From Sycon ciliatum (taxonomy: Eukaryota; Porifera; Calcarea; Leucosolenida; Sycettidae): 64,000 nt of DNA. Positions within the stretch are counted from its first letter, which is position 1. Every line of letters starts with the position of its first letter. The notes beneath the pieces were generated by a model that worked only from the letters and a program-made list of their open reading frames with translations, searched no databases and had not been told where the DNA came from. Where the stretch lies: contig NC_088655.1 in the NCBI RefSeq assembly GCF_964019385.1, positions 6,108,658 to 6,172,657 on the forward strand. The letters run 5' to 3'. Of this stretch, positions 810 to 63,489 are shown in pieces. A program made the translations under genes and the position numbers.

Positions 810-1299
810 TGCACTTGCAACTACTACTATACTTTAGTAGTAAGAACTAGTAGCTACATGCGCAAGTATGAGTACTCGTAGTGCGCCGTGTACTAGAGCA
901 CGCGCGGAGCATTCGAAAAGTATTCGAAAAGTATTTTCTGTTTGCGGGCATTTTTCAGTCGAACAAAGCCCTAGTTTCGACTGATTGAGTGCTTTTCGTG
1001 ACAATTTTCGATTTTCACTCGAAAATTCGATTTGCTGATGCTCCGTAGTAACGGAACTGGTTCGGATGTGATGTACAGCGCTATGGGAGTAGTAGTAGTA
1101 GTAGTAGATTTTATTATTTTACTAGGGGAGTCCCAACAGGCGTTGCCTTTTTACTGGGAACCCTAGGAATGGGTGTGTCCACCCGAATTCTTTTCACAGA
1201 TTATTATTGTATTCCCGTATGTCACATGACTGTCGCCTTGGAGTCGACCAATGACAGATCAAATTACGCGGGCTGGACAGCGCGATCCTGCCTGCTGAT
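810..1299. other. Non-coding; short (AGT)n tract
   Basis: No gene seen. It contains a short trinucleotide (AGT)n run at about 1088-1108 and several ATTCGAAAA-type short repeats around 913-1030. Confidence 0.4.
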
Positions 1300-1636
1300 G
1301 GAACTACAGTCCATTCATCGGAAACTGGCCCGCTGGCTTTTGAAAGTCGGATTTGGGCCGAATTGAGGATCAAAAACCCACTTTAAATCTCAAAAATCTG
1401 GGTTTTGGATCTGCTTCTCCATGCATTTTGCCATGGCATACCTGTCCTAATTTTGTAAAACCTGGCTGAATTTCTATTTCCCTCTTCTTGGACTTTTCTG
1501 GCCTCAAATGTGGCAAGGAGTAATTGCACGGGTCACACAATGCAGGATGTACTGTTGTTTTCACGATATCTACAACTATGTGAGAGAGACACCAAAAAGT
1601 TAGGGTGCCAGTTTCCAATGAATGGACTGTAGTTCC
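1300..1636. mobile_element. Short TIR element (MITE-like)
   Basis: The 30-bp arms at 1300-1329 and 1607-1636 are inverted copies with one mismatch; the left arm starts GGAACTACAGTCCATTCATC. The 277-bp interior is non-coding. No target duplication is obvious, so the superfamily is undetermined. The right end touches the nested hairpins at 1635-1745. Confidence 0.6.
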
Positions 1637-1745
1637 ACTGCCCGTCGTCAAGTGACGACGGGCAGTGGACGGAATCCACTGCCCGTCGTCACTTGACGAC
1701 GGGCAGTGGACAGAATCCACTGTACTGCCCGTCGTCACTTGACGA
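1635..1745. repeat. Tandem perfect palindromes
   Basis: Two adjacent perfect hairpins, 1635-1668 and 1676-1709, each have 16-bp arms (CCACTGCCCGTCGTCA and its complement) around a 2-nt centre. A third, partial copy spans about 1718-1745. The two centres are AG and CT, so the second hairpin is the inverse of the first. A degraded relative lies near 3265-3295. Confidence 0.85.
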
Positions 1746-2000
1746 CTAGGCACCGGCGGATTATGCCGGCATAATTATTGGCATAATTTGGTGGTTGAAA
1801 ATTTGGAGCATAATTTGGCATCCTTTCGGATGTACATGTAGGAGAATAACTACTTGATTGTACCACCGTTCTAGTATGTAGGCTACACAATTGTGTACAG
1901 TGACCTGATCCGTGCTGGTGGTCTGCATGGTAAAGGGTTCCGAGGTCAAGCAGATAGTGTTTTCAATGAAAACAGGGTAGAAATCTTGGCAATACAGTAT
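1746..2000. other. Non-coding; AATTATGCC-type repeats
   Basis: It begins with low-complexity motifs related to GGCGGATTATGC and CATAATTTGG. Similar motifs recur at 11600-11885. Nothing coding was seen. Confidence 0.35.
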
Positions 2001-2002
2001 TA

Positions 2003-3104
2003 GAGAGGTTTTGCAGAGCGAACGTTCGCAATGATTTTCGCGTTCCGGGTTGCGAAAACTATTGCGAACGTTCGTGCGAAATTTGTGTTTTGCATGTTTT
2101 TCGCTCCAAGAAATTTTCGCGTGCACTCGCTTGTTTGAGAAGTACAGTGACAGTGAGTGGTCTTCATCCGATTATTTTTGTTGTTGCGAGTGGTGGCACC
2201 TAGAGTTACGTCCTGAGACGAGAGCTCCTTGACTACCTTGTCCATGGCCGGACACCCACAGTCACAAACGGGTTGGCTTGTGCCGTAATCTGGCGCATCA
2301 ACACCTGAAATTCAAAGAGGCATCGATGCATCGTTGGTGTAACCGACTCTGAGCAGTGAGAAGACGAGCAGGCAGGAGATGGTCCCGGAGATGAAGCAAC
2401 ACGGACCGCCACAAGTATAGCCTAGCTAGCACCCGCGGACCAAGCCAAGAGTAGAGATCAAGCACAAACATGAGGACTGAGGGTGGCTCACCGTGCACGA
2501 ACAGTCCACAAAGACGAAAATTACTGCGAAAGTTTGCACGTATATATCTCGCTCCAAGAAAGTACTCGCTTGTTTTTGAGAAGTCGTCTCCATCCGATTA
2601 TTTGTTTGTTGCGAGTGGCGGCACGCGCACCAGGTACCGTGAGTCACGGCCTGAGACGAGAGCTCTTTGACTACGTTGTCCATGGCCAGAGACCCACAGA
2701 CAAACGGGTCGGGTTGGCTTGTGTCGTAATCTTGTGCATCAACACGTGAGATTCAAAAGGCATCATTGATGTAACCGACTCTGAGCAGTGAGAAGACGAG
2801 CAAGCAGGAGATCGGAGATGGTTCTGGAGATGAAGCAACACGGGTTGCCACAAGTATAGGAAAGCTAGCACTCGCGGACCAAGCCAAGAGACTTTGAAGA
2901 GTAGAGATAAAGCACAAACATGAAGATCACCGTGCACCAGGCTGACCAGCGGTCCACAAAGAGCGAAAATATTTAATTACTGCGAAAGTTTGTTTCGCGT
3001 TTCCTGCAACTTTCGCGTTCAAAACTGCGAACGTTCGCACGAAGTTTCGCTTTTCGTGACGTCAAACGAAAATTCGCGCGAACGTTCGCTCTGCAAAACC
3101 TCTC
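2003..3104. mobile_element. TA-flanked TIR transposon with internal duplication
   Basis: Perfect terminal inverted repeats of about 27 bp begin GAGAGGTTTTGCAGAGCGAA, at 2003-2029 and 3078-3104. They are flanked by TA on both sides (2001-2002 and 3105-3106), the target duplication of Tc1/mariner-type elements. Inside, a segment of about 0.4 kb is repeated in tandem (about 2158-2540 and 2582-2992), sharing for example the run around GTAACCGACTCTGAGCAGTG. No transposase frame is present, so the element is non-autonomous. Confidence 0.8.
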
Positions 3105-3106
3105 TA

Positions 3107-3373
3107 CTGTGTGTTCAGGCTCGACTTCTTCAAAGCTCTTTCTCACACTGATACAGTACTGTAGCAGAATATGCGAGTGAATCCGTCTTTATCAGGTATC
3201 CCGGGGTGGACGAGATACTAGTAGTGACGGGTAGTCCGCAAAACTCCGCGTACATGACTACATGTAGTGACGACGGGCAGTAACAGAATCCACTCATGAG
3301 TCTACCATTCCAATGACAAGCTTCTGTGGTCTGAAAGTACATGCAAAAGTCATGTACTGAGTCTGTAGTCCGT
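3107..3373. other. Non-coding
   Basis: No gene seen. It contains a decayed copy of the GACGACGGGCAGT hairpin sequence near 3265-3295. Confidence 0.35.
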
Positions 3374-3991
3374 GTAGACCCGGGTGCTCGAATCAGAAAC
3401 GATTTGACAGGTGTGAAATTTCTCATCTGTAAATCTCAACAATTGTCAGAATATACTTTTGGAGAGGCGATGGAACAGGAAAGGGAGTCTGGCTTGACCC
3501 ACCCAGCAGGAATTCAGAACCTGGGGGCGCTACAATACAAGCTACAGTACGCAGTAAAATGGTCGTATTTCCTTCGGATTTTTTATTTGAAAATTGGGTG
3601 CTCGAATCAGAAACAGCAAACTCGTCAGATCGTCTCCGATTCAAGCACACGGGTCTACCATCGTCTACGCTTGGTGTGGCAGTTGAGGGCAGGGAGTAGT
3701 GACTAACTACTTCGTTTTTGAGAGCAAGATGGTCAGTGCCGCCGCAGATTCGGCAGGTCGTTGGCAGCACCGTACAGGAGACCCACATCCTCGAATCAAG
3801 GACCCAGCAAAAAGTGGGTCGCGAGTATTTCAAAAACCGTTTACCGGGCAGCGCTGAAATTTGGCATACCGTTAGCGGGCCGTATGTTGATGGTATTTGT
3901 GAAAACTAAACGAAATCGGAATAAGTTTAGGTACAATTTCAGGCTGTTTCTGTTTTGGTACCCTGTATCTCATTCGAGCACCCGGGTCTAC
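3374..3991. mobile_element. TIR-bounded element, non-autonomous
   Basis: The 20-bp inverted ends GTAGACCCGGGTGCTCGAAT lie at 3374-3393 and 3972-3991. Internal degraded copies of the same motif lie near 3598-3660, in both orientations, suggesting a composite or nested element. No transposase and no clear target duplication. Confidence 0.55.
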
Positions 3992-4299
3992 GGTTGTCGA
4001 AGTCACTCTCACTCAGCTCACAGCCTCATAGAGTCATACAGTATACAGGACTCGAGTCACAGAATGGTTCTTGTAAACTCAAAGATTGTGAGTGTCACTG
4101 AGTGATCTCCTTGCGACCTTGGAATTGGCTTGGGTGCATACGGGAAACACGTTCCAGTCACTCATACTCGGTCAGTACCGCTGTTCATCCAGCCCTTGCC
4201 GCTATCGCGGCGCGGGCTGGATTCCGCGGTACTGCCCTTGTACTCGTGCAGGAACCTGTACCTCTTGATGGTATGGCCCGGGACGGGTTCACCATGATT

Positions 4300-7847: not shown

Positions 7848-9670
7848 AAAAATCATAGGGATGTTATAAATTGTTCAATTCTCCTATTTTTTTTTCAGGC
7901 ATATCCTGGGATTCGAACCCGCACTATCGCCCTACATGCATTCCCCCATACACTTCGCATTCATACCCATTAGAGAGGTTCCGGGGTACGATTTTCCGTG
8001 CCAAAATCCGTATGGGCGCTACGGATTTTTTCCAGGCGTGCTCCATACGATTTTTCGGCACGGAGAATCCGTGTGGACTGGCTTTCATACGAACCATGTT
8101 TCGTATGGAGATTTTGCGTCATCGGGTGCAGAAAGATTTTTCGCGTACAAATTTGGTACGAGAAACATGGATTTACCGCGGGAAGTTTTGATTTCGGTAC
8201 AAATTTTCAAAATAAAAAGGCATAGCGCGGGAATGTGACGTGTTTGCGATCGTAACCTAGGCAATGACGCCAAACACATACGTTCCGTACCGTGGAACTT
8301 TTCACGGCTCGAAAACGATGTATAAAATATCCGTAGCGCCTCCACGGATTTTGGCACGAAAAATCGTACTCCGGAACCTCCCTATTCATCCAAGTTGCTT
8401 CACGTTATGATCTTGCATTTGAAAGCCCTATTTGAATATTGCGTGCAGCTGTATGTGGCCAGCTGTGTTTGATGGTACGGTACGGGAGACGGTGTCGTAT
8501 TACCCTCGATCGTGCCTGTCCCGTTCCTATCCCTACCGTACCGTACCAGCAAAGACGGCTGGCCACAATGCATATTCAAATAGGGCTTTCAAATGCAAGA
8601 TCATAATGTGAAGCAACTTGGAAGAATTAGTATGTATGCGAAGGGTATCGGGGGATGCATGCAGATAGTGCGGGTTCGAATCCCAGGTTATGTCTTTAAA
8701 AAAAAAGGATTTTTTTAAAGACCGGGGATGCATGCAGGGCGCGATAGTGCGGGTTCGAATCCCAGGTTATGTCTTTTAACAAAAAGGAATTTTTCAAAGA
8801 CCGGGGGGCGCATGCAGGGCGCGATAGTGCGGGTTCGACTCCCAGGTTATGTCTTAAAACAAGGAATTTTTCAAAGACCGGGGGGTGCATGCAGGGCGCG
8901 ATAGTGCGGGTTCTATTCCCAGGTTATGTTTTAACAAAAAAGGATTTTTTAAAGAATTTATAACATCCCTATGCTTTTTTTTGTCTAGGTCATCAAGGCA
9001 AAAAAGCATAGCGTAGGGCCCTGAGCTTCCAAGCTCTCTCGTTTGGTATTTGTGTGTTTGTTTGTTTGTGTGTTTGTGTCACGCCTGGTGTTATCCCGTA
9101 TCTGTCCCGTACCGTACCATCAAACACAGCTGGCCACATACAGCTGGCCGCAATATTCAAATAGGGCTTTCAAACGCAAAATCATAACGTGAAGCAAATT
9201 GGAAGAATGGGTATGAATGCGAAGTGTATGGGGGAATGCATGTAGGGCGATAGTGCGGGTTCGAATCCCAGGATATGCCTGGAAAAAAACAGAAGAATTG
9301 AAAAATATATAACATCCCTATGCTTTTTTTGCCGTCATCAAGGCGGTAGACGGTGTTGTATTACCCTCGATCGTACCTGTCCCGTACCTATCCCGTACCG
9401 TACCATCAAAGACGGCTGGCCACAATGCATATTCAAATAGGGCTTTCAAATGCAAGATCATAACGTGAAGCAACTTGGAAGAATTAGTATGTATGCGAAG
9501 TGTATCGGGGGATGCATGCAGGGCGCGCGATAGTGCGGGTTCGAATCCCAGGTTATGTCTTAAAAAAAGGAATTTCTTTTAAAAGAATTTATAACATCCC
9601 TATGCTTTTTTTGTCTAGGTCATCAAGGCAAAAAAGCATAGCGTAGGGCCCTGAGCTTCCAAGCTCTCTC
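7848..9670. repeat. Cluster of B-box-bearing dispersed repeats
   Basis: Several copies of one repeat in both orientations: forward at 7848-7970 plus 8385-8470, reverse at about 8540-8700, 9150-9320 and 9410-9600. Each has a polymerase III B-box-like GGGTTCGAATCCC beside a run such as CCAGGTTATG, and ends at ATAACATCCCTATGC followed by a T-run. Between 8650 and 8955 the B-box segment is itself repeated about four times with a 75-80 bp period. A further copy sits at 39735-39975. No canonical A-box is visible at the expected spacing, so tRNA-SINE identity is only likely. Confidence 0.6.
7973..8382. mobile_element. TA-flanked TIR element nested in a repeat
   Basis: Imperfect inverted arms of about 58 bp begin GAGAGGTTCCGGGGTACG and end CCGGAACCTCCC, flanked by TA at 7971-7972 and 8383-8384. 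It lies inside a B-box repeat; the related copy at about 9150-9250 is uninterrupted at the corresponding point, which gives an empty-site comparison. No transposase is encoded. The first bases resemble the ends of the element at 2003-3104. Confidence 0.75.
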
Positions 9671-9870: not shown

Positions 9871-10496
9871 TTTTACTGTGCCGAAAATATGTCCCTGTGG
9901 GTCCGTTGTTATTAGGCAGTGACCTAGCCAAAGCCGGCTCAGCCGGCAGAATGCCGGCTGGGAGGGCGACCTGCCGGCTGAGACAGCTCCAAGGGTTATT
10001 TTGGCCGGCTGGCAAACGATTGAGATTTAGAGAAATTTTCAATTTTCAGTTTCTACAAGTACAAGTATTTGTAGCATGCTGTGTTCTGGATCATTTTTCT
10101 TTCAATCATGTCACCAAGCCCACTATCTGAATAATCCTGGAAACAGAACGACCGGCGCAGGACTGGCACAGCCCCCAGGACGATGCATTTTCACTAGAAC
10201 GTTGGCAGGCTGGCATAAAATCCTGGCTAGACCTCTAATAGGCATCTGCCTGTTTTGGTTTCTCCACTATAAATAAAAGAATACTTCTACTACTAAGGGC
10301 CGAAAATCATGAATTGCCTAAATTTTGCAGCGCCGAAAATTTGTATGCTTACAGTACGCAGACTTTAGCTTCGACCCTTGATGCCGTGGAGAAACAGTGG
10401 CCTAGCATTAGTTACGGTGCGGGATCAATGTTACTTCATGTTGCTACAGAATGTCCTATCTTGACAAGTGAGGGGCTGATCTGCAGCCAAATGAAT
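9871..10496. other. Non-coding up to the assembly gap
   Basis: A GCCGGCT-rich stretch at about 9925-10010 with several short inverted repeats, then no recognised feature. Confidence 0.35.
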
Positions 10497-10696
10497 NNNN
10501 NNNNNNNNNNNNNNNNNNNNNNNNNNNNNNNNNNNNNNNNNNNNNNNNNNNNNNNNNNNNNNNNNNNNNNNNNNNNNNNNNNNNNNNNNNNNNNNNNNNN
10601 NNNNNNNNNNNNNNNNNNNNNNNNNNNNNNNNNNNNNNNNNNNNNNNNNNNNNNNNNNNNNNNNNNNNNNNNNNNNNNNNNNNNNNNNNNNNNNNN
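10497..10696. other. Assembly gap (200 N)
   Basis: A run of exactly 200 undetermined bases, the usual placeholder for a scaffold join of unknown size. Confidence 0.99.
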
Positions 10697-10944
10697 GTTG
10701 TGATTATTGTGAGGTTTTGTGTGAAATTTTAATTTTCGGCTATCACATTTCGTTAATTTCTTACTTTGTAGACGGGGTCCATGGACTAGAACACAATAAC
10801 TTTTTTTTAGGCTACCGACCTCTTGGTCATCCCTCAAATAAAGAGAATAATAATAATAATCCTGAGGTCTGTGTGCAAAAATGAAAATGAGTTGTCTTTG
10901 CAATTGTTTGGTGTTACTCCTAGAGGTGTAAACGATGTTACTCA

Positions 10945-12947: not shown

Positions 12948-13091
12948 TGTGTAGTGTGTAAAATGCATGGTGCAGTGCAACACCTAAGTACACATGTACT
13001 GTAGTGTGTAGTGTGTAAAATGCATGGTGCAGTGCAACACCTAAGTACACATGTACTGTACTGTGTAGTGTGTAAAATGCATGGTGCAGTG
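12948..13091. repeat. 57-bp satellite, block 1 (about 2.5 copies)
   Basis: The start of the satellite array; the monomer contains GCAACACCTAAGTACACATG. The block stops inside a monomer, exactly at the left end of the P-like transposon, with the 8-bp duplication GTGCAGTG at 13084-13091. Confidence 0.95.
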
Positions 13092-13125
13092 CAGGGAGCC
13101 CTACACATACCGGGAGGTGACACGG
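13092..13125 (+). repeat. Left terminal inverted repeat of P-like transposon
   Basis: 34 bp, identical in inverse to 20450-20483. It probably acts as a transposase recognition or cleavage end, as TIRs do in P elements. Confidence 0.95.
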
Positions 13126-13317
13126 GCACAGAAACTGTGCATGACGTTTGACTCATTCAAAAAAAAAAAGTAGCTGAGAGTTCTCATCACACATCAGTAC
13201 AGATATTGATGAAAAGAGTTAATCGATGCTGAATATCGTTTGTGAGAGTCATCTTATCATATGCTGGCTTGCTGTGACACTTCAATATGGCCTTGAGTGG
13301 TCATTGACGCAAGTAGG

Positions 13318-16300
13318 ATGGCGGCCAATGTTTCCCAGGCTCAGCTTTTGGGTAAAAGGTAAGAGTGTTTTGTGATGTCAAAATTTAGTGAAAATGACGA
13401 TCGAATGAACATGTTTCCTGAAGTCTGACCAAGTTTGAACACTCTGAACGAGTATTTCCGGCGAAGATAAAGGCTGTCGCCACACACTAGCACAGCGATC
13501 TAACTAAACTCTGCTGAACGTCGTGGTGAAATCAGAGCCTAAAAACATTTTCAAGTTCGTACTTTTGTATAGCTGTAACAAGTGGATAGACTCTTTGGAT
13601 TCGCTGTATCGTGCAAATATAAGTTAACCTAATTACTATAAGTCGGAAACAGGAACAATTCGTGTAGTTATTGCCTGTTTTCAGATTTTTTGTGAATGCA
13701 ACATTTGCTCATATTGAAAATACATCATGTTAGCAAGCATATATTTCCACTCGGCAAAGACGTGGATTTATGAACTGTGGATTAATAGCATCTACATAAC
13801 TTCTCGTTTTATCCCTAAAAAAATGGAAACGTTAGGAGGCAATTTTGATTGCCAAATTCATCTTCAAATGTCACTATTTTTGGGACGAGTAAAGCACCGC
13901 GGTTTTCAGTACAACTATACGAAACGAATGTATAGCTGCAGTGTGCCGAGCACCATACCTGGGTACTCAAACACCAAAGTTCTGTCTGTTCTCTTTCTGT
14001 TTATATGTCAATATAGGACCTCACGTGGTGATGCTGATCCGCCTTTGAAGCGAATTTTAAGAGAACATGAAGATACGAATAGCACAACAGGTACGATGGT
14101 CATGCTCCAGCATTGCTGTCCTGCATGCACGATGAAGTGGGTGTAGTTCATATGTATGGGTGAATGGGTGAATTTTCTTCTTGCTTCTTGTTTCAGGAAT
14201 TCAATCGAAAGAAGCTATTGTTGGTGACAACTCACGCAATCATTGCATCGAGGCTGAGCTGCACCCAGCATGTAACCCAATCACTTGGAAAAATGGTGAC
14301 CCACCATGCTGTAGGGAACTTGTGCTGTACAGCATATTGCAGACCAGCTTCCCCACAAACTCGTTTAGAGCGCGGGACGCAGCATTGCTGGCCTTTGAAC
14401 GTGCAGTGAACGGTGCAAATCGAATTTTGAATTGCAAGGATCAACTTTCTCCTTCACAGGTAACCTCTTACCTGAAGCGAGCTCCGACAAAGTCAACGAA
14501 CTCCGGAAAGTATCGTGGGCGCGTCAGGTGGGCCAGGTTTAGTGACTTGGTTTCGAAAATCATTCAGGGGCATGGAGGGACTCTGCACCATGCGTTGAAG
14601 AATTGCATGACCGAAGCGGACAGGAGTGCGCTTCTTCGCGATATCGATTTAGCTTTAGCTTCGTGGGAATTTGCACCCAATCAGACTGCGGATCATAAGC
14701 CTTTTGGATTATCTGAAATCTCGGAGTTCTTTTATTCGCATGCCTCAACCTTTTCGCTCTGGCGGTTGGATAACGAGGGAAATGAAGGGTTGCATTTATT
14801 TTACTTTGGTGGAAGTCCCGCACATGCTGTACGTAGCATTAGAATCCTGCCTAACCTTTCCTTTTCAACATTCATGTATGGGATACAAGTGCCTTTGCAG
14901 CTTGATGTATCTGATAATGTAGTGTCATCAGCTGACCACTTTTCCAAACTTCTGCATATGTTGGCAACTGCCAGTGAATGCTCTGGGTGTTCTTACAATA
15001 AGTATGAGAAGGTAGTGGAGACGCGTCCTGAAGGTGGTATCTTCCGGGGTTCAGATGGTACGGTGGTAGCGAATCTTGAAGAAGCCTGGGTGCCACAACG
15101 CTGCATTCGAACTGTTGTCTGTCCCCACCTGATAGCTGCTGGGTCCAGGTGTGCAGCTTGTAAATTGTTTGACGGAACGCTGAGGAAAGCACTCTCTCGG
15201 CTTTCGGACTCACCCGTTTCTCCGCACACTGCCTTTATACATTTGTCACGTGATGACTTAATTCTACGCCTGCGTTCTGAGGCTAAACGGTTTGAGGAAC
15301 TCAGCCGAAACTTTCATCGGCTGCAGAAAATGAGGGACGAAATGATTTCGTCTGTGGATGATGGTTTTTCAGAGGTTTTTAAAAACCTTCAAGACGGTAT
15401 GGACATCATACACGACAGAGTGCAAAACCCAATATGCATGTGGGAAGGCTGCAAAAGGCATTTTTCGGAAATAAAAGATCTTGTGCATCATTTGAAATTT
15501 GACCACGTTCGAAATAGTGCATTGCAATTGCACCCATCCTACACTTGTAAATGGAAAGATTGCAAATCCGGTCCTTTTCGGTCACGAAAGTTGTGTGAAA
15601 CACACTTGCTTTTGCACACAGGTAAACCTGAAGATGCTTTCTTTAGCCTTTTGTTGGCTGACCAGGCACGTGCCCTCGTGACACCTAGTCATCAAATGCG
15701 CTGGCACCCATCAGTGCTTCGTTGGTGTATGCAGCAACATGCGCTGTCTGCTCAGTCGTACGAAAGTATGCGGGAGTCTGGGTTTTTGAAACTTCCGTCT
15801 GGCAGGACTATATTGAGGTACCGGAACTTCAACCAGCCTCAAAGCGGTTGGCATGAACATTCACTCAGAAATATGAGAGAGAGCTATGATGAGTTTCTTC
15901 GCCAGGGAAAAGGCAGACATGACCGAGCCTTTATGGGTGGACTTTACTTTGACGAAGTTAAGGTGAAAGAAGGCCTTGTATGGGACGAACGTTCTGATAC
16001 CCTTGTAGGCTTCGTGGACAGTGGGTGTTATCCTGATAGTGAAGAGGGTGAAGTGGAAGACCTGTTAGCTACCCATGTTCTGCAGTTCTCCTTCAAGAGC
16101 CTCTTTTCTAAATTTTTCTTTCCATGCTGCTACTTCTTCACTAAGTCTATGAAGGGGTATCAACTGGAAGATGTAATTGATGCTGGTGTTTCAAGCCTTC
16201 ACCGGTTTGGGTTTGATGTGCTTGTCCTTTGTTGTGACGGTGGTGGTAGCAATCGTGGTTTTTTGCGTAGCTTTCAGGATAGCTCCGGTGCATACTACAA

Positions 16301-17308
16301 CAAGAAATCATTGCACCCTATATTCGTCATATCAGACCCTACACACATTGTAAAGAAGTTCCGAAACAACCTTTCGAAAAGTGGTCAAGGAGCGTCTTTC
16401 ACGAGGCACCTGCAGGTTGAAGGGTATAGCATAGTGTGGAAGCAGATTAGGGAGGTGAACGAGAGGGATAGTCAGCGCCAAGTGGGTTTGACAAGAATCA
16501 CAAAGGAACATGTAAACCTTTCTAGCTACAGCAAAATGCGTGCTGGGCTGGCATTTGATGTCTTCCAGCAGTGTGTCATTGATGAAATGCAGACCAGTGA
16601 TCCTGCTGGAACGGTAGGAGTACGGAAGTACTTGGAAAACGTTAAAATGTTTGTGGATATCTTTTCTTCAAGCACCAAGTTGGTAGACCCATCAGACCCC
16701 CGCCTGGTCAAACTTGCATCCGTAAGCCAATGGCTGAATGATTGGAAAAGCAATGCAGGATCTTCTGGTGGCTCCAAATCTTTTGTTTCCCCTCAGTTAC
16801 ATGAGGATGTGACTTTTGCAGCCCAAGGCTTGCAGAGCCTTGTAGCATTCATTGCCACAGAGTTCCATAGCTTGGAACCACCTCTCTATGTGATACCGAA
16901 AACCATTAATCAAGACTTCCTTGAAGGGTATTTTGGACTCCAGAGGAGCATTGGCGGTTGCAATAGCAACATGACATGCAAAGCGTATGGGTACAATGGC
17001 CTGTGTCTCAATCAGACTCATGTCATGGGTAGAAACCTGGGTACGGGTGCAGCTCAAATGCCTCTCAAGCCTCATCATGCAAGGACGGTGGCAACTTCTA
17101 AGGATTCACACCAGAAACAGTAAGTGACTTGCGTGTGTACTTCAATATACACGGATATTAATTTTTTCACCAATTGAGGGAATGGAAAAGGGAAATTGAT
17201 ATTAATTTTAATATTTCATTTAGACTCGGATTGAGAGCCAATCGTCAGCTATCACCTCTAGCACGTCAAGTTGGAAGGCTGTTGGATTGCGCACCCAAGA
17301 CGTGCTAG
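13318..17308 (+). CDS. P-element-type transposase, four exons, with C2H2 fingers
   Basis: Proposed exons are 13318-13358, 14017-14090, 14197-17119 and 17224-17308. All introns are GT-AG, the phases agree (2, 1, 2), and the sum gives 1040 codons plus stop. The ATG at 13318 has a good context (GTAGGATGG). Exon 3 is one long open frame. Its C-terminal half matches P-element transposase landmarks: LYFDEVKVKEGLVW, VLCCDGGGSNRGF, FVISDPTHIVKKFRNN, and near the end INQDFLEGYFGLQR. This points to an RNase-H-like core with candidate acidic residues near D624, D719 and E948. Two C2H2 fingers lie at about 452-512 (CMWEGC and CKWKDC starts), and a Cys-rich cluster at about 300-365 (CSGC, CPH, CAAC). No N-terminal THAP finger is seen, unlike the Drosophila element and THAP9. 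No frameshift or internal stop appears, so it may be functional. Short exons 1, 2 and 4 are inferred from splice signals only. Confidence 0.88.
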
Positions 17309-18006
17309 AGCTGTTAGCCAGTTAGTTGTAGAACGTCGGTACCGTCGGTCAGTGTCGTGCAATGTTATCGCATTAGCTGATTGTCAAGTAAGTGGTGGTG
17401 TTAGTGGACATTATAGCCTAACTTGTAGTTCCTTGATCCTTTTTCTTTACTAAAAATATTTCATTTGTAAAGGGAAAATGACCTGTAAGTTACTAGTTAG
17501 GACGAACAGACGAACAGTCCACCATTTATTTCATTTGCTTGGCATTTAGATGTTTGGAGCTTAAAGAAAGGGTAGAGCAGGATTTTGGACTTTAACTTTT
17601 AACAAAAGGCTGTGAAAGGCAAAAGTAGAAATTTTGAGTGTCCATTAGATGAATACAGTATGTTTGTTTTTGGAAAACTTAAAAGTGTACCAAAAACGAA
17701 TCGAAAATGACAATATCGACGCTGGAAAAGGAAGGCCTCCTTAGGCCTTAGCAAATAATTTACAATGCAAGCATGATGGAGGCGGTGCAGATAACAGGAA
17801 AAACTTGTAATCTATTCGAATCACTATTCATAAGGTTGAGGAAATATGAATGTTCAGTGGGAAAAATACTATAATTATGATACGATGTGATATGATGAAG
17901 CCCCCAGGGCAAAAAATTGGGGAGATATTTACGATGATTGCAGCATAACACCGTGGTGGTGAAGACAGAGATTGAGACATAAAATAAATACTACTTATCT
18001 GGTTCA
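17309..18006. other. Spacer between convergent transposon genes
   Basis: AT-rich, non-coding. It would contain the 3' ends of both convergent transcripts. Confidence 0.5.
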
Positions 18007-20083
18007 TTACTTTGGCTCGCAGTTCTCCTTTTCCAAGGAGGTTAGGTGGGAGGAAAGTCTGCTGATCAGGTCAGCTTTCGTCCCTCCCACGGGCAAACCA
18101 TTACTGCGCAATGCGTCTTTAAGTTGCTTCACAGTACCAGTTGTGAGGATGCTGGCAGAGTCAGGATTGGCTGTCTTGCTGGCAGCATTGCTCCCTGGCT
18201 TGACACTGGCACGTAGGGCCTGGGAGGATTTCCTTGGGGCCAAGTTGAATCTCCTCAGCATCTGCTTCTGTTTGCTTTTGACAAACATATCGATGATCGC
18301 CACCAACATTGATTTGTCATCAGTGTTGGTGAGCCTGTGGAACTGCTTGCAGATGCCTTGATCTGCAAGAAGGTTTGCTTTCAGGAGAGGCAGTGCAGTG
18401 CTGCGCTCTTTAGCCAGAAGAGCATGGAAACTCGACTCTGTTAACTCGTGCATTTGCTGGAACATTGCTAATGCATCTGACTTCAGCTTGAAGACGTGCT
18501 TCCCTTGGTTTTGCTTCTCTTCTGTGTGGTTGCATGCCTGCAGGAGTGGATCGTCTTCTATGTCATCAAACGATTCGAATACATCTGCTGCCAACACCGC
18601 TGACAAGCTTCTGGATGTTTCATCATTGACCGTCACAACTTCAGCAACCGCCACATCGTGTGTTACGCTTTCTTCAACCACCTCTTCTACCTCTGCAACA
18701 TCCTCTTCTACAGACTCGGCTGGCTGCCCATTTCCGTGAAGAACTGAATCATCCTCACTCGTAAGTAGTTCTATCTTAGACACCCGGCAGCCCTGCGCCA
18801 GACGCACATCCACTCCAAATTGACTGAGTACCCGCAAGTTTTCTTGTTGTCCTTGCTTGTGCCATATCCTTTTCCGCACAGCTACAATGCACCATCCAGC
18901 ATGGTATGCTATGGCTGCAGCCTCCGGTGCATCATGTCGTTGTGGCCGTTCTTTTGTGGTGATTTGCAGGGTTCCGGATTTCTGCAACTCATGCCATATT
19001 GTTCGGACTAGCTCGTGGAATAGGGAAGATGACAATCGATCGGTAACTGCAGCATTCAAAGCAGAGAAGAATGGATAATTAGCCAAGTGCCGCATACTCT
19101 TGAAATTATAAATTACATTATAATATATTGTCAACTCTGCACAACTGCTGCATGTTCTGCTGGTGCCGTACCTTTGTTGTTGCCGATGTGTCTGTTAATT
19201 AAAATTCCGCATACTCTTGAAATTATAAATTAAATATATATTGTCAACTCTGCACAACTGTTGCATGTTCCGCTGGTGCCGTAGCTTTGTTGTTGGCGAT
19301 GTGTCTGTTAATTAATTCTACATGTTAGTGTGCAGTCAACCAATCTAGCTCTAGTATTAAATGAAGTTGATGCAGTTTCAATTTTATGCATTTGTGTTTG
19401 CTGTACGGCAATATCTAACTTATGCTTCCTGCTGCAATCTATTTCACGACACGTTTCAGTTGTAATTTGCTTATTTCCTTTCCACTCACGTGCTTGAAAT
19501 ATGTCGGCAACTACAATGTTTCGATCCAAGACACCGGTACGCGGTATGCTATAATAATACTTGTTTTTTCATTGTCTAGCGAATTTATTTCCTCTCTCTA
19601 GAAAATGAGGGCTACTGATGAGCTCCAGCCGAGAGCACCATCAATGATAATATTATTATAATGTACATGATTGTAGGATGTATAATGATGACTAATTACT
19701 TTCATTATACGAGTAGCAAGATATTGTTCGTGTGTAATTCTTACCTTTTTTATCATCTGGAAAATTCGCATCCTCTCTGCTGCAAATAACCAATTTGCAA
19801 AATCTAGTAAACGATGGCTGCTTGTACATGGCTCTCAAGTGCTGACGTATTTCTGTTTGGGACCTTCCAAAGCAGTTGTTCAAGTCACTGGAGAACTCAA
19901 TCAGGAATGACTGAGTTCCCCAGTACGTATGATCCCCGCCCTGCATGCATTTCTCAAGCAATGTGCAAATTGCACGCGCGGTGGTCGACTCCTGTGGCTG
20001 GTGGGCGGCTAGAACTTCGTCCTCAGCAAGACCTGCATCCAAAATTCCGCAACATTGAATGGCGCTGCGTCGATATCATCCAT
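18007..20083 (-). CDS. SAP-domain protein of the P-like transposon (frameshifted)
   Basis: The last exon, 19098-18007, encodes 363 residues: a conserved-looking region (SMRHLANYPFFSALNAAV), an acidic middle (repeated Glu/Val, EEDVAEVEEVVEE) and a C-terminal SAP motif (TVKQLKDALRSNGLPVGG..ADLISRL), a fold that binds AT-rich DNA. The first exon, about 20083-19745, starts at an ATG (MDDIDAAPF...) and ends at a good donor (AAAG/GTAAG). It changes frame at a run of four T at 20044-20041, where one extra T would keep it open. Exon 1 ends in phase 1 and the 19098 acceptor is phase 0, so an intervening exon is needed; a candidate at 19492-19407 fits both phases. Function is unknown. A DNA-binding helper for transposition is an inference from its place inside the element. 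Confidence 0.65.
19091..19316. repeat. Tandem duplication of about 115 bp in the SAP gene intron
   Basis: The segment 19091-19203 is repeated at 19208-19316 with a few substitutions (shared CCGCATACTCTTGAAATTAT). It covers the beginning of the SAP-domain exon, so two potential acceptor regions exist. Confidence 0.85.
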
Positions 20084-20449
20084 TATCAACACAAACTCAT
20101 TCAACAAATGAAAAACTATCATCACCAACCTCGAATCCACTTCACAAAGCGCTCTTTGTCCAAACAAAAGTCTTCCTTGCACACAAGAATGTCTTCGGCC
20201 ACAACAAGGGGGCTAGGAAGATTCGACATTTCATCTCCCAGGACAGATCAAAGATGTATCAAAGATAATAGCACTTAGTACAATAATTCAATCCAATCGA
20301 TCGATTCAAACTTTCAAATGAATACTGCACTAAAAATTCATGAAACCATCCTTGTTTTAGCCTTGTTTGCGGTTTCAAAAAAGTTCGATGGTTTTTTGAA
20401 AAACCACAGGGTTCACCCGTGAGGCAACCATCAAACAGGAGTTATGGTT

Positions 20450-20483
20450 CCGTGTCACCTCCCGGTATGTGTAGGGCTCCCTG
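20450..20483 (-). repeat. Right terminal inverted repeat of P-like transposon
   Basis: 34 bp, a perfect inverse match to 13092-13125, followed directly by the target duplication GTGCAGTG at 20484-20491. Confidence 0.95.
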
Positions 20484-21493
20484 GTGCAGTGCAACACCTA
20501 AGTACACATGTACTGTACTGTGTAGTGTGTAAAATGCATGGTGCAGTGCAACACCTAAGTACACATGTACTGTACTGTGTAGTGTGTAAAATGCATGGTG
20601 CAGTGCAACACCTAAGTACACATGTACTGTACTGTGTAGTGTGTAAAATGCATGGTGCAGTGCAACACCTAAGTACACATGTACTGTACTGTGTAGTGTG
20701 TAAAATGCATGGTGCAGTGCAACACCTAAGTACACATGTACTGTACTGTGTAGTGTGTAAAATGCATGGTGCAGTGCAACACCTAAGTACACATGTACTG
20801 TACTGTGTAGTGTGTAAAATGCATGGTGCAGTGCAACACCTAAGTACACATGTACTGTAGTGTGTAGTGTGTAAAATGCATGGTGCAGTGCAACACCTAA
20901 GTACACATGTACTGTACTGTGTAGTGTGTAAAATGCATGGTGCAGTGCAACACCTAAGTACACATGTACTGTACTGTGTAGTGTGTAAAATGCATGGTGC
21001 AGTGCAACACCTAAGTACACATGTACTGTACTGTGTAGTGTGTAAAATGCATGGTGCAGTGCAACACCTAAGTACACATGTACTGTACTGTGTAGTGTGT
21101 AAAATGCATGGTGCAGTGCAACACCTAAGTACACATGTACTGTAGTGTGTAGTGTGTAAAATGCATGGTGCAGTGCAACACCTAAGTACACATGTACTGT
21201 AGTGTGTAGTGTGTAAAATGCATGGTGCAGTGAAACACCTAAGTACACATGTACTGTACTGTGTAGTGTGTAAAATGCATGGTGCAGTGCAACACCTAAG
21301 TACACATGTACTGTAGTGTGTAGTGTGTAAAATGCATGGTGCAGTGCAACACCTAAGTACACATGTACTGTAGTGTGTAGTGTGTAAAATGCATGGTGCA
21401 GTGCAACACCTAAGTACACATGTACTGTACTGTGTAGTGTGTAAAATGCATGGTGCAGTGCAACACCTAAGTACACATTAGAACAACACCTAA
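20484..21493. repeat. 57-bp satellite, block 2 (about 17.7 copies)
   Basis: Continuation of the satellite interrupted by the P-like transposon, in the same orientation as block 1. Monomers differ by few changes, mainly GTACTGTACTGTG versus GTACTGTAGTGTG. The last copies are rearranged near 21477-21503, where a short ACAACACCTAAGTACACATTAG unit is duplicated. Confidence 0.95.
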
Positions 21494-22840
21494 GTACACA
21501 TTAGCCGGTGTGCAACCCGGGGCATGGAAACTTGCCCATGTTGTCCCAGTTCACAAACGGTCCTCCAGATCTTTGGCATCTAACTACCGACCAATATCAC
21601 TGCTAACGATCATGTCGAAAGTCATGGAGGGCATTGTAAACACGCAACTGGTTAACTACCTAGAGAAGCATGAGGTGTTGCCAAACAGCCAGTTTGGATT
21701 CCGACGTGGTAGAGGAACCGCAGATATCTTAACGGCTCTCCAACATGAATGGGTCCACACCATAAGTACTGGCGGTTGTGTCCAGGTCCTCGCCGTGGAT
21801 ATTGCCGGTGCGTTTGACGGGGTATCGCACACAGGAGTGCTGTACAAAGCAAAGCAGGCCGGCGTCGACGGACGCCTGCTTGTTTGGCTACAGGACTACC
21901 TCACCAACCGAAACATCCGCGTTGTGGTTGGAGGCCAGACGTCAGATGCTCAACCCATCCAGGCTGGTGTCCCCCAAGGCAGCATCCTAGGACCCAGCCT
22001 CTTCCTTCTATACACCTGTGACATTGAACAATGTTTAACTCCAGGAACGCAGCTGAGCAGCTTTGCAGACGACACCACACTCTACAGCTTAGTACAGCCA
22101 ACTGACGATCTCCAACAGTCCACCGCCTCCCTCATACTTGTTCAAGCTGCACTACATTCCAGGGCCTCCCCAGGTAAAGGCCATGCTGCCACCAACCAAG
22201 CCCCCTGCCGTAGCTAGCATGTGCACACGGCAAACACGTCAGACGCACCATGCCTTTCAGCTGAAGTGGACACCACCTCGCACAGCCCCTGACTACCTCC
22301 TGCGATCCTTCCCCTTCTTCGCCATCACACCCTGGAACAACCTGCCTGCGGACCTCCTGCTTCACGAGCCTCATTCAAGACGCCTCCAAACCTTCAAGGT
22401 CAACGTATGTAAGGATCTAATCCGAAAGAGATGGCTGTGGTCCACACAGTACCTGTGACGATGATATTGAGATTTGAGACCCATTTAGTATTTACCTCTC
22501 TACTACTACTTGCTTGTTATGATTACTGTCCTCTTTCTTCATTTTCCCTTCTGGTTTAGTCATTACACGTATTAATTTATATTATTTGGTGCAATACTAG
22601 AGCCCCTTTCTCGCACCAAATTATTATTTTTGCTACCTGACCATGCACCCCCCCCTTTTTTTCGATGCCAGGTTGCAACGCTAACGCCGAGACCCCTGGT
22701 CGGTCGAGTTGCTCCCTGTACATCGGCACGTCGTCCCTACATCCCCTGTGTCTTGTCTTGTGTTTGTCTCCACATGTCTCTTTGTAGGGCTGTGTTCCCA
22801 ATAAAAAAAAAAAAAAAAACAAAAAAAAACAAAAAAAAAC
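21494..22840 (+). mobile_element. 5'-truncated LINE with poly(A) tail
   Basis: It starts abruptly in the fingers of a reverse transcriptase and ends with AATAAA merging into an A-rich tail (22799-22840), the signature of a retroposed copy. It sits inside the 57-bp satellite at the ACACAT position. The target duplication is not clear beyond about 4 bp (ACAT). Confidence 0.8.
21510..22458 (+). pseudogene. LINE reverse transcriptase remnant (CR1/Jockey-like)
   Basis: The first part (21510-about 22135) shows non-LTR RT blocks in order: NYRPISLL, SQFGFRRGRGT, LAVDIAGAFD, AGVPQGSILGP and FADDTTLY, the last being the catalytic FADD. The frame then breaks. A second frame (about 22138-22458) supplies a C-terminal tail with ITPWNNLPADLL, usual at the end of CR1/Jockey-type ORF2. 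The thumb region between them is missing, so there is an internal deletion with frameshift. The endonuclease domain is absent because of 5' truncation. The copy is dead. Confidence 0.85.
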
Positions 22841-24158: not shown

Positions 24159-26724
24159 TTCCACTTCTACAGTCCTGTATGGTCACGTGAATCCGTTCGC
24201 GCGAAATTTGCATCTGCAGTGCTGTTCAAACCTGGCGCGAGATACGCACAGAAGTTGACGTCATTATTTATGACGCAATGATAGGAAGATAATATTAAAA
24301 ATACTACACAGGTGTGGACAATATGTCTCCGGAATGGCGAGAGTCACACTAAAACACAAATGGTTTTAGATCATGCTTTCAACCACTGCCAGCTCCCTGA
24401 GCTCGTTAGCTGGACGATGGTATGCCGACCGAGACCCACGGACACACATGACAGCGGACCGGAGCAGCGCGAAAGACAGCCTGCAGCGCACATATGCAAC
24501 ATGGTGTGCATAGGGCATGCTGGAATCAGCCCTGGCAAGCAAGCCACAGAGGCGCTTAAGGAACCTTTCACATTCAGGGGCGGCAACACCAGAAGTTGAC
24601 AACACCAGCGGGCTGAATGTGCCACGATCCACATTGACGATTCGCTCTCCGTACTGCAGCTTCTTCTGGCGCTCGTGCTGAAGCAGTAGGGCATCCAGTG
24701 GTTGGGCCGAGTAGGACGCCGCATCAGGATGGAAGACGCGTACATCAAAGAAAGCATCCTGTGCTCGGGTCCAGAAGCCACGGGCACGGACATCAGCGCG
24801 GGCATCCTCGGCGGTGTTTGTTGATGCAGCCATAAACACCTCTCCAGAGAGCGGGGCTAGCTGAGGCTCGATTGCCACTGCGTGGCAGACCTCCGTGAGT
24901 AGCTCCCCTACCATGTCACGGACTTCGTTATGGCGGATTGTAGGGAAGCCACCCCGGGGGCAACACATGGCATGAGCAGTGGAGAACAGAACTCCGCAGG
25001 CACACTTCGTGGGGACATCGAGGAGAGGCCAGTCATACCGCAATGCAAGGCCGTCCCTGAACTCCTGCTTCGAGAGGTGGAACCCATGTTCCTTGAGAGG
25101 AAGAGCAGTGAGCCAGGAAGAGGGGCCTTTGCGGGACAGCTCATCCATACGACGGGCCAAGGGGCGGTCTGCAGCTTCTCGGAGAGCAGCGAAAGAGGCA
25201 GCACTAGCTTTCTTGGAGGACTTGGCAGCAGATGCTCTCTCACGGCGGGCTAGCTGATCCACAAAGTCGCAGGAATGATGCTGCCACTCTCGATCGTGCT
25301 GGTGGATGATCTCGTCAACCTGGCTGCTCGTGATGACTTGGGAAGCCTGCAGTTGGGAGGTAGCAATTTCTTTGAAGTATGGCAAACCGATTCCACCGAG
25401 CCGGCAAGGTAGCCGTAGAAGAGAGAGGTCATCCGCCGTGAATGTGCGTTTCCCTGTCAGAGCCGGAAGGAAGTGCTCCGTGACCGTGTCATCCAGTCGC
25501 TGCAGCTGTTCAGCTGAGAACTCCAGTGTACGAAGGAGATATGTCCATCGACCACGCAATCCGTGTGTGAGGGCGGCATACGCCGCATGAGGTTCGGTAG
25601 TGGCAATCTCGGACAGTCGCATAAGCTCCTGCTGCCAGTCTTGTACTTTCCCAGCTGTATAGCCAGCGATGAAATCCGGTGTCCCTATAGCGGCACCCAG
25701 GTAGCGTGCTCCATCCGTGACCACTTCAATGCCAGTTCCTGCAAAGACACTGTGGGCCAGGTTGAGCAGGTCAGGCTTGACGAGGAGGAGAGTCTTCGAG
25801 GCGTTGACATGGTAACCGTAAGGTTTCCCGGTCTCGTCCACATCATCCCACCAGCGTCGAAGGGCCCGTAGCTTGCCTGCACCACTTGAATCATCGGCAT
25901 ACCACAATTGACGGATGTTGGCGTGGGTAGTGCGGAGGTGCCGTACGAATGGTAATGTAGCGAGGGCATAGAAAACCATCGACAGAGGGTCACCTTGTGT
26001 GGTACCCTCTGCGGAGGAAAGCTCACCACCGCCAGAAACGAAGAGGCGGGCATCATCTTGGTAGCAGTTCAGCAGTGTGGTAGCCAGGGAAGGACACAAG
26101 TGGCGAACATTGTGAAGAGCTGCTTGGCGGTTCAGGCAATTGAAGGCATTCTTCGCGTCAACTAGTAGGACTCCTTCAGTTGTGGCGTCCTCATACAAGC
26201 GCTTCATGGCGTGGACCGCTGCTTCTATCCCAGCTGGCAATCCAGAACACTTCTGGAGAAAACCACAGGCCTCCATTACATCGTCTGACGTTACTCGGAG
26301 AATGGATTTGGCTAGAATGCGACGGAGGACCTCAGACACCCCAATGGGCCTGACACCTGGGTTCTTGTCCAGGGCAATTAGACGACAGGCGGTGAAGGGG
26401 GTAAGAGAGTCTGGCGGCAAGGTTTGTGTTGCTAGCAAGCGGCCGAAGGACGCCATCGCCGAGCAAAGGTTGTTGGAGGCCCCTTTGTACGCCGAGCACA
26501 TACGTCGCCATGCTGACGAGTCGAGACCAGAGGGACCTGCCGAGCCTTTCGCCTGCATGGCCACGGTTTTCACGAGGTCGGCAGTCAGGGAATCAAATCG
26601 GATTGGGTGGCACTGAGGCGCTGCTCCCGCTATCAGGATGTGCTCTGCTGCTGGAGTGCCGCAAGGATGCTTACTCTCCAGGGCTGCCCGCACGGTTGTG
26701 GTGGAGTCCTTGATGGTGATCGAG
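24159..26724 (-). mobile_element. Non-LTR retrotransposon, R2-like, 12-bp target duplication
   Basis: Flanked by direct copies of TAAGTACACATG (24147-24158 and 26725-26736), which belong to the satellite monomer, so insertion boundaries are exact. On the minus strand the 5' end lies at 26724 and is truncated, its coding frame running straight out of the satellite. About 200 bp of 3' UTR follow the stop at 24366, with no poly(A). Confidence 0.88.
24366..26724 (-). CDS. Reverse transcriptase with restriction-like endonuclease, N-terminus missing
   Basis: An open frame of about 786 codons after the satellite-derived lead. RT blocks in order: AKGSAGPSGLDSSAWRR, CRLIALDK, PIGVSEVLRRI, LLVDAKNAFNCLNR (motif A Asp), GTTQGDPLSMVFYAL and LWYADDSSGAG (motif C YADD). 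A C-terminal knuckle reads CACGVLFSTAHAMCC, then RHNEVRD, and a segment ADVRARGFW..DAFFDVRV. This matches the CCHC plus restriction-like endonuclease layout of R2-type elements. The N-terminal DNA-binding region is missing. There is no internal stop or frameshift, suggesting recent insertion. The exact clade (R2, NeSL or related) was not determined. Confidence 0.85.
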
Positions 26725-27308
26725 TAAGTACACATGTACTGTACTGTGTAGTGTGTAAAATGCATGGTGCAGTGCAACACCTAAGTACACATGTACTGTA
26801 CTGTGTAGTGTGTAAAATGCATGGTGCAGTGCAACACCTAAGTACACATGTACTGTACTGTGTAGTGTGTAAAATGCATGATGCAGTGCAACACCTAAGT
26901 ACACATGTACTGTACTGTGTAGTGTGTAAAATGCATGGTGCAGTGCAACACCTAAGTACACATGTACTGTACTGTGTAGTGTGTAAAATGCATGGTGCAG
27001 TGCAACACCTAAGTACACATGTACTGTACTGTGTAGTGTGTAAAATGCATGGTGCAGTGCAACACCTAAGTACACATGTACTGTACTGTGTAGTGTGTAA
27101 AATGCATGGTGCAGTGCAACACCTAAGTACACATGTACTGTACTGTGTAGTGTGTAAAATGCATGGTGCAGTGCAACACCTAAGTACACATGTACTGTAC
27201 TGTGTAGTGTGTAAAATGCATGGTGCAGTGCAACACCTAAGTACACATGTACTGTACTGTGTAGTGTGTAAAATGCATGGTGCAGTGCAACACCTAAGTA
27301 CACATGTA
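26725..27308. repeat. 57-bp satellite, block 4 (about 10 copies)
   Basis: The end of the array, same orientation as the other blocks. It begins with the second target copy TAAGTACACATG and ends at unique sequence. Confidence 0.95.
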
Positions 27309-33996: not shown

Positions 33997-38256
<4,260 letters not shown>

Positions 38257-38262
38257 ATGCAC

Positions 38263-52185: not shown

Positions 52186-54850
52186 CACACTCCCTACCCA
52201 CAATTCCCTGCCCATACTTCTCTGCGCGCATTCCTGATCACACTCCTGCCTACACTCCTGACAGCATTTCTGAACACGCTCATGCTCCTCCCCTCACTTC
52301 TCTGCTCGCATTCCTGCCCACACTCCTGCCGGCACTCCTTCCCACACTCCCTCCCACGCTGATCAGTCCAGCCCGCCCTCCTCAGTCCTGCCTGCACTAC
52401 TGCCCACATTACTGCCTACACTTCTACCCGCACTACTGCCTGCACGTCTGCCTACACTTCTGCCTACACTTCCACCTACACTACTGCCAACCCTTCTGCC
52501 TACACTACTGCCTACACTACTGCCTACACTACTGCCTACACTACTGCCTACACTACTGCCTGCACTACTGCCTACACTACTGCCTACACTACTGCCTACA
52601 CCACTGCCTACACTACTGCCCGCACTACTGCCTGCACTTCTACCTACACTACTGCCTACCCTTCTGCCTACACTACTGCCTACACTACTGCCTACACTAC
52701 TGCCTACACTACTGCCTACACTACTGCCCGCACTACTGCCTGCACTTCTACCTACACTACTGCCTACCCTTCTGCCTACACTACTGCCTACACTACTGCC
52801 TACACTACTGCCTACACTTCTGCCTACACTACTGCCTACACTACTGCCTACACTACTGCCTGCACTACTGCCTACACTACTGCCTGCACTACTGCCTACA
52901 CTACTGCCTACACTACTGCCTACACTACTGCCTACATTACTGCCTACACTTCTGCCTACACTACTGCCTACACTACTGCCTACACTACTGCCTACACTAC
53001 TGCCTACACTACTGCCTACACTACTGCCTACACTACTGCCTACACTTCTGCCTACACTACTGCCTACACTACTGCCTACACTACTGCCTACACTACTGCC
53101 TACACTACTGCCTGCACTACTGCCTGCACTACTGCCTGCACTACTGCCTACACTACTGCCTACACTACTGCCTACACTACTGCCTACACCACTGCCTACA
53201 CTACTGCCCGCACTACTGCCTGCACTTCTACCTACACTACTGCCTACACTACTGCCTACACTACTGCCTACACTACTGCCTACACTACTGCCCGCACTAC
53301 TGCCTGCACTTCTACCTACACTACTGCCTACCCTTCTGCCTACACTACTGCCTACACTACTGCCTACACTACTGCCTACACTTCTGCCTACACTACTGCC
53401 TACACTACTGCCTGCACTACTGCCTACACTACTGCCTGCACTACTGCCTACACTACTGCCTACACTACTGCCTACACTACTGCCTACATTACTGCCTACA
53501 CTTCTGCCTACACTACTGCCTACACTACTGCCTACACTACTGCCTACACTACTGCCTACACTACTGCCTACACTACTGCCTACAGGCTACACTACTGCCT
53601 ACACTTCTGCCTACACTACTGCCTACACTACTGCCTACACTACTGCCTACACTACTGCCTACACTACTGCCTGCACTACTGCCTGCACTACTGCCTGCAC
53701 TACTGCCTACACTACTGCCTACACTACTGCCTACACTACTGCCTACACTACTGCCTACACTACTGCCTACACTACTGCCTACACTACTGCCTACACTACT
53801 GCCTACACTACTGCCTACAGGCTACACTACTGCCCGCACTACTGCCTACACTACTGCCTACACTACTGCCTACACTACTGCCTACACTTCTGCCTACACT
53901 ACTGCCCGCACTACTGCCTACACTACTGCCTACACTACTGCCTGCACTACTGCCTGCACTACTGCCTACACTTCTGCCTACACTACTGCCCGCACTACTG
54001 CCTACACTACTGCCTACACTGCTGCCTACACTACTGCCTGCACTACTGCCTGCACTACTGCCTGCACTACTGCCTACACTACTGCCTACACTACTGCCTA
54101 CACTACTGCCTACACTACTGCCTACACTACTGCCTACACTACTGCCTGCACTACTGCCTACACTACTGCCTACACTACTGCCTACACTTCTGCCTACACT
54201 ACTGCCTACACTAGTGCCTACACTACTGCCCGCACTACTGCCTGCACTTCTACCTACACTACTGCCTACCCTTCTGCCTACACTACTGGAGTAGCTACAC
54301 TACTGCCTGCACTACTGCCTACACTACTGCCTACACTACTGCCTACACTACTGCCTACACTACTGCCTACACTACTGCCTACACTACTGCCTACACTACT
54401 GCCTACACTACTGCCTACACTACTGCCTACACTACTGCCTGCACTACTGCCTACACTACTGCCTACACTACTGCCTACACTACTGCCTACACTACTGCCT
54501 ACACTACTGCCTACACTACTGCCTACACTACTGCCTACACTACTGCCTACACTACTGCCTACAGGCTACACTACTGCCTACACTACTGCCCGCACTACTG
54601 CCTACACTACTGCCTACACTACTGCCTACACTACTGCCTACACTTCTGCCTACACTACCGCCCGCACTACTGCCTACACTACTGCCTACACTACTGCCTG
54701 CACTACTGCCTACACTTCTGCCTACACTACTGCCCGCACTACTGCCTACACTACTGCCTACACTACTGCCTACACTACTGCCTACACTACTGCCTACACT
54801 ACTGCCTACACTACAGCCTACACTACTGCCTACACTTCTGCCCGCAGTTC
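52186..54850. repeat. 12-bp minisatellite with higher-order repeats
   Basis: About 220 units of CCTACACTACTG with C/T, A/T and G variants. Composite blocks recur: the run CCCGCACTACTGCCTGCACT followed by TCTACC appears at about 52620, 52728, 53290 and 54229, and a frame slip CTACAGGCTACACT at about 53580, 53816 and 54560, showing segmental duplication of multi-unit blocks. The minus-strand Gly-Ser-Ser-Val frame is a repeat artefact. Confidence 0.95.
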
Positions 54851-63440: not shown

Positions 63441-63489
63441 TGCTGAGTTTCTGTAATCTGAAGGCTGTATATTTCTTTAGAACTGCTCA

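Follow-up and report, generated by a model that had tools for sequence, protein, structure and literature searches.

A P-superfamily transposon with two convergent genes in the calcareous sponge Sycon ciliatum

The P element is the textbook case of a eukaryotic transposon with one protein, and the question raised by a stretch of the Sycon ciliatum genome (assembly GCF_964019385.1, contig NC_088655.1, positions 6,108,658 to 6,172,657; 64,000 nucleotides, hereafter the window) is whether P-type transposition needs a second protein. The element lies inside a 57-bp satellite and holds a spliced transposase gene and, convergent to it, another spliced gene, here called the partner. We class it as a variant with two genes within the P superfamily, broadly defined. 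Our preferred reading, to which we assign a probability of roughly 80%, is that of a recently active cut-and-paste transposon from a P-superfamily lineage with two convergent genes, the partner acting in trans with the transposase. The partner has been kept across families whose transposases differ by about 60%, which makes the need for it directly testable.

The ends and the transposase place the element in the P superfamily. The initial annotation had proposed perfect 34-bp terminal inverted repeats (TIRs), 8-bp target-site duplications (TSDs) and an exactly restored satellite monomer, and all three were borne out: when the flanks are joined with one TSD, the 57-bp period is kept at 301 of 303 compared positions (Table 1). 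No further TIR copy with three or fewer mismatches occurs in the window, and 100 shuffles likewise gave none. The proposed four-exon P-type transposase also held, as the predicted model is open, has GT/AG borders and encodes 1015 amino acids. The TNP-like RNase H domain PF21787 is recognised with 71.1 bits against a cut-off of 24.6 and is matched by all 13 transposases compared, and the Drosophila P transposase (6pe2, 6p5a) gives the top fold matches, which puts the protein inside the superfamily and not, as the initial annotation had allowed for, outside it. PF21788 remains below the cut-off in the window transposase (20.8 against 24.8 bits) and reaches 27.1 bits in the sister family L034. 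The catalytic D-D-E candidates D585, D680 and E909 were assigned by motif and, like residues 413-473 in Table 1, are numbered along the translation of 14199-17117. By our count, D680 and E909 align with positions 303 and 531 of the 6p5a chain, which are catalytic residues in P. The Pfam results for the window contain neither a hAT nor a MURA/MULE transposase domain, and Kolobok, whose target duplication is TTAA, is ruled out by the 8-bp TSDs. Besides the TNP-like RNase H, the D-D-E candidates, the TIRs and the 8-bp TSDs, the element has the TIR stubs and the palindromic target expected of the P superfamily, as described below.

The element is not a canonical P element or THAP9, because a THAP finger is absent and a second gene is present; canonical elements carry a single gene, whereas all 11 long open copies of the sponge transposase have the partner. 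Neither a Pfam match nor the motif of a THAP finger was found in any of the 13 transposases, several of which are N-terminally incomplete and two of which (the window and P0001) belong to the same family. The initial annotation had contrasted the element with canonical P proteins bearing this finger; in the sponge protein a tandem CWCH2 module sits in its place. The strict published tCWCH2 pattern (CxW..C..H..H..CxW..C..H..H) fits all 13 transposases, and the PDB matches of the module are GLI1, AEBP2 and ZIC3. As in ZIC/GLI/GLIS, AEBP2, ARID2 and Zap1, both tryptophans are invariant; these proteins, in contrast, are transcription or chromatin factors, and no transposase class is among the 11 classes named in the abstract of PMC2837044. 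None of the seven papers found to contain "CWCH2" has a title on transposons. The presence of a GLI/ZIC-type finger pair in 13 transposases raises the question of module movement between transposons and developmental transcription factors. The domain that follows RNase H at the C-terminus of P is missing, as the exon-3 frame stops 64 residues past the catalytic Glu candidate and those of P0002-P0004 after 50-60 residues. A link between this domain and the YHAGW stretch of the partner was considered and stays a guess, because no homologue was found.

Drosophila P and zebrafish Pdre2/THAP9 (PMC7776569, PMC10983969) resemble the sponge element in their P-type RNase H transposase, in having TIRs with 8-bp TSDs and derivatives with internal deletions, and in a palindromic GTCNNGAC-like target. 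In contrast to P/THAP9, the sponge transposase lacks the THAP finger and the long C-terminal domain and has the internal tandem CWCH2 module. Its TIRs measure 34 bp from CAGGG, compared with 31 bp in P and 13 bp in Pdre2, and its size is 7.4 kb against 2.9 kb in P, to which it adds a second convergent conserved gene. No sponge P element or two-gene P element is described in the titles and abstract openings searched, which left most subscription papers and Repbase outside, and a database entry may exist. A relative of the window transposase with 33% identity is encoded in JACERO010000093.1 (L001:256-1809), which is filed as a metagenome-assembled genome of Nitrosopumilus and is probably sponge DNA binned with the symbiont.

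The sites that the element appears to have left provide insight into how it moves. Our genome searches covered the sponge's own assembly (538,412,230 bases), in which 76 scar-like places with two TIR stubs were found and none with the reversed control; through them the staggered cut that is a hallmark of P can be measured in an animal far removed from flies. Stubs of fewer than 17 nt on either side were outside the search pattern, and shorter scars would thus have been missed. Among the 50 listed of the 76, 20 are 40 bp long (13 of them an exact 20+20 palindrome) and 7 are 34 bp long (17+17). Perfect TSDs flank 10 of 20 scars examined, and 14 agree at 7-8 of 8 positions; the varied fillers fit end joining. 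The flank of copy L018 reads AACACCAT, 17 nt of TIR, ACAC, 17 nt of TIR, AACACCAT, and L011 and L019 have in common a 40-bp TIR palindrome between CAGTCAAC repeats, located in the stretch that separates partner exons 2 and 3. TIR stubs of 17-20 nt also terminate several deletion derivatives, which is what an early halt of gap repair would produce, and at the right end of L019 two stubs, of 13 and 15, stand in tandem. In the P element, the transposase cleaves the non-transferred strand at 17 nt within the TIR (PMC7776569), and a staggered cut of this kind is the natural reading of the sponge scars. The stubs are observed; a P-like cut with an offset near 17-20 is what would leave them.

The TSDs fall at palindromic GTCNNGAC-like sites, and the agreement of the 27 distinct sites with the P motif GTCCGGAC (PMC3276498) is 4.22 of 8 positions, compared with 2.20 for flanking controls. 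An assignment to hAT would agree with the 8-bp TSD and with the TIR start CAGGG, which is common in hAT, yet the transposase matches TNP-like domains and the P transposase without a hAT domain, and the scars retain 17-20 nt of each TIR, stubs that hAT excision is not known to leave. We therefore rejected that assignment as scarcely tenable. The target motif alone does not separate the two superfamilies, because the hobo motif GTNCGNAC is similar to that of P and its sites resemble those of the sponge element (PMC3276498).

The genome contains 27 TIR matches at three or fewer mismatches, 21 of them exact, against none for the reversed pattern, and they comprise two-gene copies, internal deletions, one diverged decayed copy and short derivatives. 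The transposase is carried by five elements (window, L011, L013, L019 and L021), and the co-occurrence that the initial annotation had proposed to check was seen in all five, with three further copies holding the partner only. Both TIRs are intact in the full copies window, L011 and L013; L021 is broken by inserts and stops, its right end was not found, and of its partner only exon 3 was found. The partner-only copies L010, L012 and L014 lack element positions 979-4266, almost all of the transposase, and these three insertions, each with its own TSD, have identical open partner coding sequences. In L018 this deletion is joined by another, and L015 is a diverged copy (75% at the left end) whose partner exon 2 has decayed. 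A derivative of 289-299 bp (L016, L017, L020, L022, L024 and L025) looks like one insertion multiplied with a larger host repeat, because its copies have common flanks and the common TSD CTTCGAAG, and because L028, a left end of 31 nt without a recognised right end, begins within that flank as well. Other short derivatives are L023, of 227 bp, and L026 and L027, of 68 bp each with the common TSD CTCTGGCC. Copies with these TIRs that lack the SAP gene and carry unrelated cargo, which the initial annotation held would speak against it, were not seen among the 27 matches wherever both ends were recognised (all but L021 and L028). The element is recently active, since identical or near-identical copies occupy different sites.

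The partner is predicted to encode 505 amino acids in an open three-exon model. Its three coding pieces show a transposase-like codon bias of 0.10 to 0.20 in frame, whereas the two remaining forward frames score -0.09 to -0.19 and the reverse frames -0.11 to 0.08, and the longest open frame in this half of the element has 395 codons, against a maximum of 200 across 300 order-1 random sequences. Searches with protein queries gave 48 genome matches for the transposase and 44 for the partner. At 16 of 33 transposase loci the 20 kb on the 3' side hold a partner match in convergent orientation (the weakest with E 2e-4), in one case (L021) 14 kb away across inserts. When the transposase is open over at least 700 query residues, a convergent partner is present in 11 of 11 cases, 253-1172 bp downstream between the matched stretches, and seven of these transposases are only 38-43% identical to that of the window. 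The sister elements L034 (6,939 bp), L035 (6,926 bp) and L036 (8,239 bp) are complete, with 32-bp TIRs beginning CAGGGAG and exact 8-bp TSDs; for L037, the search for ends found none. Aligned with the window partner, those of L034, L036 and L037 show 28-29% identity, and the motifs YHxGWCxVAxR and SKQKQ are invariant among the four aligned. The partner is conserved beside the transposase across several families within this genome, and the two-gene version of a distinct lineage that had been put forward is supported in both anatomy and lineage. A decayed transposase relative at G000:C2:14047995-14049493, with 69-91% identity in pieces, is nearer to the window family than any of the sister families is, and no partner was detected there.

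For the end-cleavage chemistry, the mobilisation in trans and the role of the partner we infer the following course. The transposase would bind the element ends and cut the transferred strand at the tip, whereas on the other strand the cut would fall some 17-20 nt into the TIR, so that stubs of the TIR stay behind at the donor site, as they would with the 17-nt stagger of Drosophila P; joining to a palindromic target would follow, with an offset of 8 bp between the two ends. The partner would act in trans, most likely by binding DNA or chromatin and so helping the ends to pair or to insert, in a way comparable to maize mudrB, and full copies may mobilise those in which the transposase is lost and the partner kept. 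Maize MuDR offers a parallel in the way it works, with the mudrA transposase, a convergent mudrB gene for a novel protein and derivatives holding the second gene only (PMC3440606, PMC8224964). The mudrB product is described as needed for insertion in PMC8224964, yet as of unknown function in PMC3440606. The two systems differ in transposase superfamily, in the MuDR TIRs of about 215 bp and in their unrelated second proteins (PMC3440606, PMC8224964).

Several observations weigh against this reading. The commonest scar among those listed retains about 20 nt of each TIR and not the 17 of P, the TSDs of 6 of the 20 scars examined are worse than 7/8, some of the 76 may go back to one and the same event, and a scar and a tiny TIR-TIR insertion are inseparable by sequence alone. 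The GTP-contact residues are only partly kept in our own view of the fold alignment. No partner was detected at 17 of 33 transposase loci, all of them partial (127-518 residues) and nine with stops, and three of the 17 are distant open frames with 24-29% identity. Conversely, 19 of 35 partner loci compared are not convergent to a detected transposase; they comprise four deletion derivatives of the window family, four diverged loci, one of which shares its strand with a transposase piece and lies upstream of it, and 11 weak ones (E 7e-5 or worse). The conservation of the partner is known within this one genome. The start of its exon 3 is uncertain, because the 42 bp directly upstream of the first ATG in the exon-3 frame (19096-19137) have a codon-bias score of -0.22 and at that place the modelled frame of the full copy L013 lacks 1 nt. 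Comparison of recent copies gives the partner a neutral appearance (5 synonymous against 12 non-synonymous sites, rate ratio 0.68, P 0.56), whereas the transposase, compared in three copies over exons 1-3 with exon 4 left out, is under purifying selection (9 synonymous against 4 non-synonymous sites, P 0.0004); the difference between the two genes is not significant (Fisher P 0.06). Of four families examined, the window family alone has a SAP domain above the cut-off; the score is 14.1 bits in L036, and the partners of L034 and L037 have no Pfam match to it. Thus, the convergent spliced gene with a SAP domain that the initial annotation described is present as an open model, but "SAP gene" misnames it, because the families share the YHxGWCxVAxR and SKQKQ core and SAP passes in one family only.

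The neutrality among recent copies and the variation of the SAP domain between families would also suit a passenger or captured host gene with no role in movement, as would the finding of no partner homologue outside the window's own cluster among 5.8 billion proteins, of which the 8000 candidates sharing most words and separately 876 were scored. We consider such a passenger improbable, as a convergent partner accompanies all 11 long open transposases, including the seven of low identity, and the four aligned partners have invariant motifs in common; recent capture cannot explain a gene kept in this way across divergent families. The main rival to a helper is a self-encoded repressor or regulator of transposition, with partner-only derivatives that would spread while damping the full copies, a role that may be likened to that of the truncated proteins of Drosophila P elements. 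The three partner-only copies, as many as the TIR-intact full copies and with identical open partner genes, point in this direction, and a conserved partner beside the transposase suits a regulator as well as a helper. Unlike a truncated transposase, however, the partner is a protein in its own right, and a self-repressor would be less expected to stay conserved for long across families, which makes this explanation unlikely in our view, though less so than a passenger. The helper role that had been suggested from the start gains support from the conservation between families, but not from the recent copies with their lack of purifying selection; it is more plausible than the sequence alone could show, though still putative. 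A wider and tentative proposal, which we hold to be short of even odds, is that the element represents a distinct, obligate two-protein branch of the P superfamily from early animals, in which CWCH2 would replace THAP, the usual C-terminal domain would be missing, the trans partner would be essential and the cut of the non-transferred strand would lie about 20 nt inside the TIR instead of 17.

Table 1. Features of the element and its insertion site, in window coordinates.
Feature	Position	Strand	Remarks
Whole element	13092-20483		7,392 bp; TIRs and TSDs
Left TSD GTGCAGTG	13084-13091	.	same 8 bp flanks the other side
Left TIR, 34 bp	13092-13125	+	27 genome matches at three or fewer mismatches
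Transposase exon 1 (model)	13318-13358	+	
Transposase exon 2 (model)	14017-14090	+	
Transposase exon 3	14197-17118	+	almost entire protein
Tandem CWCH2 zinc-finger module (GLI/ZIC/AEBP2-like)	15435-15617	+	residues 413-473
TNP-like RNase H N-terminal domain PF21787	15933-16271	+	contains D585 and D680, catalytic Asp candidates
GTP-binding insertion domain region PF21788	16344-16607	+	below cut-off in window element
RNase H C-terminal part PF21789	16905-16985	+	below cut-off; catalytic Glu candidate E909 (QDFLE)
Transposase exon 4 (model)	17224-17234	+	L011, L013 and L019 extend 9 residues further
Partner exon 3 (model; 5' border uncertain)	18007-19136	-	core YHxGWCxVAxR and SKQKQ
SAP domain PF02037	18043-18135	-	40.5 bits, cut-off 23.9
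Partner exon 2 (model)	19745-20032	-	
Partner exon 1 (model)	20130-20229	-	
Right TIR, 34 bp	20450-20483	-	perfect inverted copy of left TIR
Right TSD GTGCAGTG	20484-20491	.	8 bp

The satellite that holds the element is also interrupted by two reverse-transcriptase pieces, at 21471-22839 and 24369-26780 of the window, the first of which is closed by an A-rich tail (22803-22839). At 8664-8955, a 77-bp tandem repeat holds GGTTCGAATCCC, which resembles a tRNA-type B box, and is possibly a tandem short interspersed nuclear element. A run of N lies within two open frames at about 10340-10700, and very long CA microsatellite and 12-bp tandem arrays occupy 34642-38257 and 52388-54842. On the minus strand, 57973-63476 contains frames of a BEL/Pao-like retroelement with a Pao peptidase, reverse transcriptase and integrase, and with DUF1759 in the second frame.

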